A stretch of DNA of 62,216 nt, from IMG/VR virus record IMGVR_UViG_3300046357_000001, positions 1 to 62,216 of that record, one strand, 5' to 3'. This stretch comes from a virus. The translations under genes were made by a program, and so were the position numbers. Positions 41,364 to 44,048 of this stretch are shown here, piece after piece; position 1 is the stretch's first letter, and each line of letters begins with the position of its first letter. The notes under the pieces were generated by a model. That model searched no databases. It saw only the letters and a list, made by a program, of their open reading frames with translations, and had not been told where the DNA came from.

Positions 41364-43793
41364 TTAAGATTTAATTTCTGTGTCAAACAATTGGGTTAGT
41401 AGTGAGTGGTCACTAACCTTTGTTTCTAATGCTTTAAACATCTTTTTCTCAATCGGTGAGCCTTGGATGTGGATGACAGTCACTTTGTCGGACGTCTGTC
41501 CCTTGCGGTCAGCACGCGCACAACACTGCACATATTGCTCCACAGACATCAACGGACCGTAGAACACAACCGTGTCGGCAGCAGTCAAGGTAATACCGTG
41601 AGCAGATGCTTGGGGCTGCATCACAAGGACGCGTGGGTCTGGGTCAGTCTGGAACCTACGGATGATGTCACCACGCTTGGAGGCAGGCACGTCACCACGA
41701 ATCATCTCTGCGCTGATACCTTTCTTCAATAGGTAGTTGTGGATGTTGTCGATACTACTGGTGAACAACGCGAAGACCAATACCTTGCGAGTCGTCTCTT
41801 CCAAGATTTCCTCCAGTACCGCCAAGCGAGGCGCCGCATCAAACTCAACCACTTCACCGTTGTCGGTGTAGGCAGCGCCACAACTGATCTGCAACAACTT
41901 CGATACACCCGCCGCCGCATTGACTGCACTGATAGTCTCGCCGCCAGTTTGAATCAGCATACGGTCTTTCAAATGCTCGTAGTACTTCTTCTGTTGCGGC
42001 GTCATCGGCACTTCACGCGTCATCGTCACCACAGGTGGCAGGTCCAAGCATTCAGCCTTAGTGAAACGAATGGCGGGTTGTAACGCCTCGAACACTGTGT
42101 CTCCTGCGTTAGCCTTCGGAGCCCACTTGAACATAGTGATCTTGTTCAGTACTTTGTCGCGCCATGCTGTGTAGAACTTAGGTACGTTGGTAGGGTTGAC
42201 CAGCTTGGCCAGCCCATATGCGTCAGCAGGCGACTGTGATGCAGGTGTACCAGTCATCATCCACAACAACGTCTCAGGCTTGATGATGGATGCCAGCGCC
42301 TTCCAGCGCCGAGTAGTAACGGTCTTGTATGCGTTGCAGTTGTGTACTAACCAGTGATCCCCAACAAAGTAGTTAGGTGTTCCCGCAACTTCGAGGTTGT
42401 AGACAGCTTCACCGTCTGGGCATTCGATATGCGAAACACTTTCCACCCAAGCGTTTCCAGCTTGGTCTCCTTCTTCCGGTCTTGCGCTTGGCGTGCTGTC
42501 GCTGTATGACTCCCCCCGTCCACCTCCAGCCCTATCTTGAGGTGCGGCAATGCGAAGTCGAGCTTGTAGTTCGTAGGAAAGCCTTGCTGCCTCTTTCCCA
42601 ACGCTACGGGGTAGTTCCATACCCAACCCACAGGCAAGACCTTGGAAATCAAACACTCTGTTGGAGTCATCCCCGTGCCATTGCCGCCCCGCACCTTGGG
42701 TTTGAGCCCCAGCGCCTTTGCTGCCGCTGACAGTTTCGCTCGGTGTTCCGCAGTCTTTGGCCCCGAAGGTTTCCCCCGCTGCTCGTGTGGCATTTCGCAA
42801 AAGTAGCTCTTGCTGGGGTTCAGTAAGTGCCATCTCTTCCGTGCGCAGGATTTGGAGCAGGTCTGTCCAAGCGCCTTTTGGTACTTTTGCGCCCATGTGT
42901 ACCGGGATTGTGGAAAGTGGTACTCCTGCCCGCAAACAGGACAGTTCAAGACCAGATATAAGCCGTCTACCCGTAAGATTTTTGGCACACATCCATCCAG
43001 CGTCTGTGAAGAATGGGTGCTCTGGGGTGCACCGAATTGTTTTTCCGTTTCCAAGTTTGACCTCGACAATCTGTTTAGTGGTATTGCGTACAAGCCTGTT
43101 TATACCCATTACTCCGTCAGATGTCAAGACCTTATCCCCCATTTGCAGTTGTTCTATGGGCCGTCTACCTTGTGGGGTAGCCACCAAAGTCCCTGCTACA
43201 AAGCACTCATCAACGATAACCAGATCGAACTTGCCGTTGGCGTTTATCTCATCAGCAATTAAGTTCAAGCCTTCGTAGTTGGTAATGACGAACTCATAGT
43301 TCTGTTGCACCATCTCGATACGACGCGATGCTTGTGGGTGGTGGGCGATGATCGCGCTACGGTGAATGACGCTTGCGTTCAAGTCCTGCATCCAAGCTGA
43401 CTGCATGATCGACAACGGACACAGCACAAGGACTCGTCTCACTTCACCACGTGTCATCAAGTAGTCCGCGGCCCACAATGCTGAGAGCGTCTTGCCTGTG
43501 CCGGGCTCGCTAAACACGAATGCCTTGCGGTTGAGCGTTAGGAAAGATGCTGTATCAATCTGGTGTGCCATTGGCTTGTGACGGCCGGGCCAGTTATAGC
43601 GGCGTGTGATTGGTGAAGGTACGTCCTTCACCCCTAAGTTTTTAAGCACTCGACATTCGTCTAGTCCCCAGAAAACAGCTACCTCCGCAGACCCGTCTTC
43701 GTATTGCTCGACGACTTTGCTGCGGGGAATGACTGTGTACTTTTCTGGGTTTCTAGTTCGAAGGAGCAGCGCCTTGTCTTCGATGATTTCCAT
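41364..43793 (-). CDS. SNF2/DEAD-type helicase containing an intein
   Basis: An 809-residue precursor. Extein N-part: Walker A SEPGTGKT (95-102), VLVLCPLSIM motif Ia, NYE and FDLVIVDE at 190-196. The intein follows at Cys197 and ends at Asn485; the extein resumes as CNAYKTVTTRRWKAL, so splicing gives IVDECNAYK, the DEAH-box-like Walker B of SNF2-type helicases. Motif III MMTGTPASQSP and motifs V/VI (QPQASAHGITLT, QCCARADRKGQ) follow. The spliced enzyme would be 520 residues. Likely role: unwinding or remodelling in replication or recombination, next to RecB-like and HNH nucleases. GAGAGAAGCA precedes the ATG. Confidence 0.9.
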   Translation of the reverse strand: MEIIEDKALLLRTRNPEKYTVIPRSKVVEQYEDGSAEVAVFWGLDECRVLKNLGVKDVPSPITRRYNWPGRHKPMAHQIDTASFLTLNRKAFVFSEPGTGKTLSALWAADYLMTRGEVRRVLVLCPLSIMQSAWMQDLNASVIHRSAIIAHHPQASRRIEMVQQNYEFVITNYEGLNLIADEINANGKFDLVIVDECFVAGTLVATPQGRRPIEQLQMGDKVLTSDGVMGINRLVRNTTKQIVEVKLGNGKTIRCTPEHPFFTDAGWMCAKNLTGRRLISGLELSCLRAGVPLSTIPVHMGAKVPKGAWTDLLQILRTEEMALTEPQQELLLRNATRAAGETFGAKDCGTPSETVSGSKGAGAQTQGAGRQWHGDDSNRVFDFQGLACGLGMELPRSVGKEAARLSYELQARLRIAAPQDRAGGGRGESYSDSTPSARPEEGDQAGNAWVESVSHIECPDGEAVYNLEVAGTPNYFVGDHWLVHNCNAYKTVTTRRWKALASIIKPETLLWMMTGTPASQSPADAYGLAKLVNPTNVPKFYTAWRDKVLNKITMFKWAPKANAGDTVFEALQPAIRFTKAECLDLPPVVTMTREVPMTPQQKKYYEHLKDRMLIQTGGETISAVNAAAGVSKLLQISCGAAYTDNGEVVEFDAAPRLAVLEEILEETTRKVLVFALFTSSIDNIHNYLLKKGISAEMIRGDVPASKRGDIIRRFQTDPDPRVLVMQPQASAHGITLTAADTVVFYGPLMSVEQYVQCCARADRKGQTSDKVTVIHIQGSPIEKKMFKALETKVSDHSLLTQLFDTEIKS
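42339..43205 (-). mobile_element. Intein in helicase Walker B
   Basis: An 867-base, 289-residue intein (helicase residues 197-485). Block A is CFVAGTLVATPQGRRPIEQL (Cys1), block B has IRCTPEHPFFTDAGW (the TPEH motif with its His), block F/G is VYNLEVAGTPNYFVGDHW then VHN with terminal Asn, and the next extein residue is Cys. These are the residues needed for protein splicing. There is no in-frame LAGLIDADG or HNH domain. The ~150-residue middle (Gly/Arg/Asp/Ser/Gln-rich) is unlike normal folded sequence, because a nuclease gene occupies the DNA in another frame. Confidence 0.93.
42347..43054 (-). CDS. Homing endonuclease (Vsr/DUF559-like) overprinted in helicase intein
   Basis: A same-strand gene wholly inside the intein, in the +1 frame. 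A zinc-finger module is visible (CPVCGQEYHF, then CSKSC about 24 residues later), then a Lys/Arg-rich linker and a Vsr/PD-(D/E)XK-like nuclease: NYKLDFALPHLKIGLEVDGG (active Asp and Glu), QDRKKETKLETLGWKVFRI (Gln, Lys). The frame opens after a TAA at ~43106. TTG at 43054 is preferred (GAGG then 6 bases); TTG at 43093 is also possible. The stop (42347-42349) is 6 bases from the intein end, so blocks F and G are doubly coded. It would promote intein homing into helicase alleles that lack it. Confidence 0.85.
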   Translation of the reverse strand: METEKQFGAPQSTHSSQTLDGCVPKILRVDGLYLVLNCPVCGQEYHFPQSRYTWAQKYQKALGQTCSKSCARKRWHLLNPSKSYFCEMPHEQRGKPSGPKTAEHRAKLSAAAKALGLKPKVRGGNGTGMTPTECLISKVLPVGWVWNYPVALGKRQQGFPTNYKLDFALPHLKIGLEVDGGSHTATARQAQDRKKETKLETLGWKVFRISNAQTVKLSTTSKLREHLTTLLGITG

Positions 43794-43808
43794 TGCTTCT
43801 CTCTATCT

Positions 43809-44048
43809 TTATTTGTTATCGCCTTCGTTTGCTTTCTTGGCACGCAAACGCAAATTGCCCGGAGTTGTCTTACCACCCTTGCGCAGTGGCTTGATGTGGT
43901 CGATGTCCTTACCTGCGCGGTCGATACCCTTCTTGTCAAACAACTGGCGTGCGCGTTGGCGCTCGGATTGGTCAGACCCCGGACCGGACTTGCCGGTCTC
44001 TAGGTCACGTTTGTATTCTTTTGCGTAGTCGCGTTTGCGTGTTGCCAT
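43809..44048 (-). CDS. Small HNH-like endonuclease
   Basis: A 79-residue basic protein with IDHIKPLRKGG then TPGNLRLR, an HNH-like core (first His, then Asn) of the small phage HNH group, although the last His is not obvious. The Lys/Arg-rich N-terminus could grip DNA. Located between the helicase and the RecB-like nuclease. It may aid packaging or be a mobile gene. Start has a SD-like TAATGAAA; call is by motif. Confidence 0.65.
   Translation of the reverse strand: MATRKRDYAKEYKRDLETGKSGPGSDQSERQRARQLFDKKGIDRAGKDIDHIKPLRKGGKTTPGNLRLRAKKANEGDNK

Follow-up and report, generated by a model that had tools for sequence, protein, structure and literature searches.

In the open papers searched, the precedents for homing-type nucleases encoded out of frame within a phage gene are a paper from 2025 on ShiLan, in which an out-of-frame HNH nuclease is located in a phage methylase gene (PMC11855218), and an announcement of a similar out-of-frame HNH nuclease in a methylase. 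For ShiLan, the authors did not detect splicing elements of inteins or introns, and the nuclease was described to have a non-ATG start and no detectable ribosome-binding sequence (PMC11855218). An intein with an out-of-frame nuclease was not encountered in the open papers searched. The ordinary layout is that of canonical mobile inteins such as PI-SceI, whose polypeptide includes the nuclease as one of its domains; it is also found for DUF559 nucleases, as in an archaeal UvrD helicase intein (L101:4822-7500, from a Methanosuratincola MAG) that carries such a nuclease in frame. In fractured genes, reportedly described by Dassa et al. in 2009, split inteins are found with Vsr-like endonucleases between the split parts. 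A further related nuclease, I-Bth0305I, is borne by a phage group I intron and thus by an element that is spliced as RNA.

The locus analyzed here is part of a 62-kb virus record of IMG/VR (IMGVR_UViG_3300046357_000001), whose entire length of 62,216 nucleotides is referred to as the window. A minus-strand ORF (43793-41364) encodes a SNF2/DEAD-like helicase of 809 amino acids that contains an intein of 867 nt or 289 amino acids (42339..43205, minus strand; Cys197 to Asn485 of the helicase ORF). The insertion point lies inside helicase motif II (...VIVDE^C...HN^CNAYK). The N-extein (43206..43793, minus strand) ends in this motif (...VIVDE) and matches the Pfam family SNF2-rel_dom (1.9e-18); the C-extein (41364..42338, minus strand) begins with a Cys at the +1 position, where empty alleles read DEANAYK, and matches Helicase_C (1e-14). 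The intein frame matches Intein_splicing (5e-12) and Hint_2 (1e-9), and a profile search of this frame detected no nuclease family, i.e. none of the in-frame nuclease domains characteristic of canonical large mobile inteins. The Pfam matches and the invariant motifs described below bear out two claims of the first-pass annotation, namely that the intein is intact from Cys197 to Asn485 with its splicing blocks and that it lacks an in-frame nuclease. A group I intron with a homing gene was considered as well and rejected, because there was no Rfam match up to an E value of 0.5 over positions 42200-43900. Directly 5' of the helicase, a small HNH-like gene (43809-44048, minus strand) shows a weak PHROG HNH match.

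Shifted by one base relative to the intein frame, the same DNA contains an open frame between 43093 and 42347, whose match to DUF559 (6e-8) exceeds the curated cut-off. The TTG codon at 43054 is the most likely start of this putative gene (42347..43054, minus strand), which would then encode 235 amino acids in 708 nt including the TAG stop. The first-pass annotation had proposed a nuclease of 747 bases starting at TTG 43093 and ending 6 bases before the end of the intein; the measured gap is 8 nt, and the upstream start was rejected, as 6 of 13 close relatives contain a nuclease-frame stop downstream of it, at intein nt 136-145. Another candidate, TTG 42949 just 5' of the zinc knuckle, was dropped in favor of 43054, as the nuclease frame is under selection from approximately intein nt 219 onward and the codons forming GAGG and TTG at nt 141-153 are frozen. 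The stop codon (42347..42349, minus strand) is formed by the intein codons TTA GTA for Leu and Val of the terminal LVHN; the nuclease C-terminus and the terminal intein blocks share bases.

The zinc finger and the Vsr/DUF559-like core noted for this separate +1-frame gene were both recovered. A zinc knuckle of the form C-x2-C, C-x3-C (42845..42949, minus strand) has four Cys that are invariant in 15 sequences and at least 90% conserved in 33, and it shows a match to the eL24 zinc finger (0.004). The active-site segment (42479..42559, minus strand) reads E-x-D-x3-H-x8-D with a preceding Asp; D131, E142, H148 and D157 are invariant, and D144 is at least 90% conserved. The AF2 model of the nuclease has a mean pLDDT of 84, and the best of its informative structural matches are to I-Bth0305I (3r3p, Foldseek TM 0.68 on target) and 3hrl (profile match, 3e-7). 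The protein thus has the catalytic signature and the predicted fold of an EDxHD/Vsr-like homing endonuclease.

The locus resembles ShiLan in that a frame-shifted homing-type nuclease with a non-ATG start is located in an uninterrupted host ORF, is sporadically distributed and was missed by annotation. However, whereas the ShiLan insert has no splicing element, that of the window is recognizable as an intein and has invariant splicing motifs; the nuclease is of the DUF559/EDxHD type, placed in the +1 frame of a helicase and preceded by a conserved GAGG, in contrast to the HNH nuclease in a methylase. With fractured genes, the locus shares a phage-type host gene and a Vsr-like nuclease associated with an intein but not fused to it in frame; there, host gene and intein are reportedly split around a free-standing nuclease gene, whereas the window and all 80 relatives examined contain one continuous ORF with the nuclease overprinted. 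The Hint domain, the location of the nuclease between blocks B and F and a presumed homing cycle are common to canonical mobile inteins such as PI-SceI and the window, but the nuclease of the latter would be a separate protein from another frame. I-Bth0305I shares the catalytic fold and the E-D-H-D signature; unlike its intron, the window insert matches no RNA family.

The out-of-frame layout is conserved among relatives. A tblastn search against phage records detected the nuclease, at 30-33% identity, within the helicase genes of Vibrio phages (including CP-T1), Pseudomonas phage MR14 and Corynebacterium phage phi673, and in all eight annotated phage regions examined it was located in the +1 frame of an uninterrupted helicase-intein ORF. 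IMG/VR contains 13 close relatives at 70-76%, and among the best 80 loci of a profile search of this database the nuclease invariably occupied +1 relative to an open host ORF (80/80); neither in-frame nor +2 placements occurred. Canonical N- and C-terminal intein motifs are present in nearly all of these loci, a few being cut by contig ends. Together with a locus from a bacterial MAG (L102) that has the same layout, they make up a first family, which comprises 38 clusters at 70% and 16 clusters at 50% nuclease identity; the loci are related and mostly metagenomic, and p-values given here are nominal and overstate independence. Their host genes encode SNF2, ResIII and DEAD helicases, a terminase (L069) and helicase-methylases (L071, L072). 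An independent search with the splicing domain alone, in which the nuclease was not selected for, retrieved 38 loci with at least 54% identity, of which one is cut by a contig end; all 37 complete close relatives have a full-length, stop-free nuclease in +1, and an open intein frame accompanied by a nuclease with one stop was found only in the more distant loci L219 and L220 (46% identity). By all appearances, the double use of this DNA stretch is old, widespread in related phages and missed by genome annotation.

We interpret the locus as a dual-coding mobile intein, with a helicase precursor encoded in frame 1 and a homing nuclease gene in the +1 frame, and put the probability of this reading at roughly 0.88; every sequence-based test that was run points to genuine dual coding. 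Both frames are conserved and under selection, fold relationships and conserved expression signals are evident, the intein is sporadically distributed, and its divergence is discordant with that of its host gene; from these features we infer splicing, translation of the nuclease, its target site and homing. Frame 1 would give rise to a helicase precursor, from which the Hint domain (blocks A/B, residues 1-90, and F/G, residues 251-289) would excise itself by means of Cys1, T-x-x-H, His-Asn and the +1 Cys in motif II, yielding a working helicase; the ~157 residues between the Hint halves would represent a passive, disordered linker. Frame 2 (+1) would be an independent gene of ~235 codons that starts at the internal TTG after a GAGG ribosome-binding site and is probably transcribed from an internal promoter as well. 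Its product, a zinc-finger and EDxHD/Vsr-like homing endonuclease, would cut the intein-free motif II (DEA^N) in helicase genes, and the ensuing repair would copy the intein in and replace the Ala codon at +1 by a Cys codon.

Among helicases with 76-93% identity to the C-extein, 78 of 79 are devoid of the intein, with the sequence DEANAYK at this site (DES in one case). The +1 site (42336-42338 in the window) is occupied by Ala, once by Ser, in the empty alleles (L103-L181) and by Cys in intein-bearing alleles, and thus gain of the intein came with an Ala-to-Cys change. For 11 close loci, identity of the Hint domain is correlated with that of the nuclease (rho 0.58) and hardly with that of the exteins (rho 0.03); the window and L010, for example, share 88% identity in the Hint domain versus 55% in the exteins. 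If all pairs including distant loci are considered, the three correlations are similar (0.53-0.57; Hint-extein 0.56), and the signal of horizontal transfer therefore rests on the close set. Around the insertion site, identity between the window and its nearest empty allele (L103, with 93% C-extein identity) is flat, with no co-conversion tract visible in this comparison. Damaged nucleases in open inteins were also observed: the catalytic D144 is replaced by G in L016, and single stops occur in L219, L220, L262 and L266. Such copies fit a homing cycle, and the stop in L219 and L220 is as expected of a decaying copy. An alternative explanation is that the nuclease is expressed but has a main role other than homing, such as keeping out competing phages or regulating its own locus. 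Phage homing-type nucleases can exclude co-infecting phages, as is established for those of the T4 type. However, the absence of the host intein from most relatives, the discordant divergence of intein and exteins and the nuclease fold, which is that of a homing endonuclease catalytic domain, speak against this role as the main one, and we give this explanation a small chance.

Expression of the nuclease as a gene of its own is suggested by signals written into the intein coding sequence. In zero-based intein numbering, the start TTG lies at nt 151 (window position 43054), and a Shine-Dalgarno-like GAGG (43061..43064, minus strand) is found 6 nt upstream. Within the window's clade, Leu51 is encoded by CTT, which creates the TTG, in 25 of 27 loci (21% expected), and Glu48 by GAG, which creates the GAGG, in 27 of 27 (50% expected); over nt 151-256, a single nuclease-frame stop was observed in 30 loci versus 39 expected. 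Further upstream, a -35-like hexamer TTGACA (43122..43127, minus strand) with frozen synonymous codons is followed after 17 nt by a -10-like hexamer TATAAA (43099..43104, minus strand). By its conservation and position this arrangement (43127-43099) is a promoter-like element: TTGAC[AT]/TATAA[AG] or near variants are present in nearly all of the ~30 loci of the clade, and the motif is absent from distant relatives. A standard promoter scan reports nothing here; it requires a T at position 6, which TATAAA lacks. Synonymous diversity drops from 0.60 in block A to 0.23 in the promoter-like stretch (permutation p 1e-4), is 0.52 in the following gap, drops again to 0.18 at the Shine-Dalgarno-like sequence and start, and amounts to 0.48 in block B.

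The end of the nuclease gene shows a similar codon bias, as 50 of 58 distinct loci use an NTA codon for the intein Leu of LVHN versus 18% expected (nominal p=1.5e-29), and where Val or Ile occupies this position the codon is GTA or ATA. The nuclease stop is evidently built from these rare NTA codons. In two loci (L063:4893-5633, L072:4779-5849) there is no stop in LVHN, and the nuclease frame reads through the end of the intein and on into the extein that follows.

These signals also bear on the possibility that a +1 ribosomal frameshift inside the intein produces a Hint-nuclease fusion, with no internal initiation. Such a mechanism would be in agreement with the identical +1 shift in every locus of the first family and with the lack of protein-level constraint on the nuclease leader (nt 151-219), but the frozen GAGG and TTG codons in the window's clade and a promoter-like element upstream of the start speak against it. 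Moreover, in Vibrio and Pseudomonas phages the nuclease starts with an ATG just 5' of the zinc finger, in several of them with a GAGG-like sequence upstream and the frame closed further upstream, and the second family described below uses the other shift. We give frameshifting a small chance, too.

With respect to splicing, C1, T60xxH63, H288 and N289 are invariant in 32 relatives and represent the residues of a class 1 cis-splicing intein; the +1 residue is Cys or Ser in intein-bearing loci. The block B motif T-x-x-H (43017..43028, minus strand) overlaps the unconstrained nuclease leader. In the AF2 model of the intein frame, residues 1-90 and 251-289 form a Hint domain with a pLDDT of about 90, for which Foldseek reports matches to gp41-1 and other inteins (2lwy, 6qaz and further entries). 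Residues 125-250 are modeled with a pLDDT below 50, and the DNA overprinted by the nuclease would accordingly appear in the intein product as a passive linker. It has been proposed for the ShiLan insertion that the insert does not splice, and the helicase of the window might likewise tolerate its insert as an appendage. Yet the invariance of all splicing residues, the Hint fold, the insertion within a catalytic motif and the presence of Ala at the +1 site of empty alleles versus Cys or Ser next to an intein make this very improbable.

Per-frame selection was analyzed for the 13 closest inteins, which are all 867 nt long and aligned without gaps, with each substitution classed by its effect in both frames. 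Over nt 3-249, dN/dS is 0.13 (0.08-0.19) in the intein frame and 1.02 in the nuclease frame; in the core (nt 249-780), the nuclease frame is the more constrained one with 0.30 (0.24-0.38) versus 0.64 (0.51-0.81) for the intein frame; and over blocks F/G (nt 780-858), the values are 0.21 (0.08-0.50) for the intein and 0.56 (0.30-1.11) for the nuclease. Selection thus evidently switches frame along the element, from the intein only before the nuclease start to the nuclease in the core and to the intein over F/G, and the most variable codon position shifts in step with the frame under selection. Simultaneous constraint on both frames over F/G is only partly secured, because the interval for the nuclease reaches 1.11. 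In synonymous resampling, zero stops in the other frame were obtained in 0-0.7% (intein frame) and mostly 0-5% (nuclease frame), and the third frame contains 12-18 stops per close relative. An accidental open frame or a dead nuclease-like relic can practically be dismissed, for although chance open frames are possible with GC-rich DNA and an intein frame, and damaged copies exist in L219/L220 and L016, this view is contradicted by the matches to DUF559 and I-Bth0305I, by the per-frame selection tests, by a nuclease frame that stays open across 80 loci, in contrast to the many stops of the third frame, and by the frozen start and stop codons.

A second family came from distant matches to the splicing domain, among them inteins located near the C-terminus of the terminase large subunit. 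An HNH_3 nuclease (4e-15) that also has a zinc finger is encoded in the +2 frame of these inteins (L221-L252, L259-L338; e.g. L226:3404-3934, L323), and among the best 80 relatives this nuclease is nested in +2 in 77, two being cut by contig ends and one (L288) being free-standing. In these terminase inteins, which have a mean GC content of 35%, the intein frame contains no stops over the nuclease and the nuclease frame none except one each in L262 and L266, while the third frame has 9-34; the peak of variability shifts to the codon position that is silent in +2. In Acinetobacter phage Highwayman, the HNH match is located inside the terminase CDS and has no CDS of its own. Because nuclease, frame shift and host site all differ between the two families, the out-of-frame layout evidently arose at least twice.

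It seems rather likely, if somewhat less so than the dual-coding reading of the window itself, that mobile inteins have a regular third architecture, that of out-of-frame homing genes, in addition to in-frame fusions and split loci. This architecture would have arisen at least twice in tailed phages, with EDxHD nucleases in +1 where helicases and terminases have their ATPase motif II, and with HNH nucleases in +2 near the C-terminal end of terminases, and in the window's clade the intein would carry a whole nuclease cassette consisting of promoter, ribosome-binding site, start and stop. If so, many phage inteins that seem to be free of an endonuclease might be fully mobile, and disordered linkers could be by-products of overprinting. 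With this layout, fusion of the homing enzyme to the splicing domain is dispensable, which would permit separate timing and dosage and free the splicing domain from accommodating a folded nuclease, and the layout offers a natural route between free-standing and intein-embedded homing genes. The long same-strand overlaps (about 600-700 nt), available in many independent sequences, should be useful for studies of overprinting. Since the nuclease is annotated as a CDS in 0 of 9 annotated phage regions inspected (eight of the DUF559 type and the HNH of Highwayman), surveys that read the host frame alone are likely to undercount phage homing genes. Finally, two host ORFs (L067:3272-6670, L079:3044-6751) apparently contain two inteins each.
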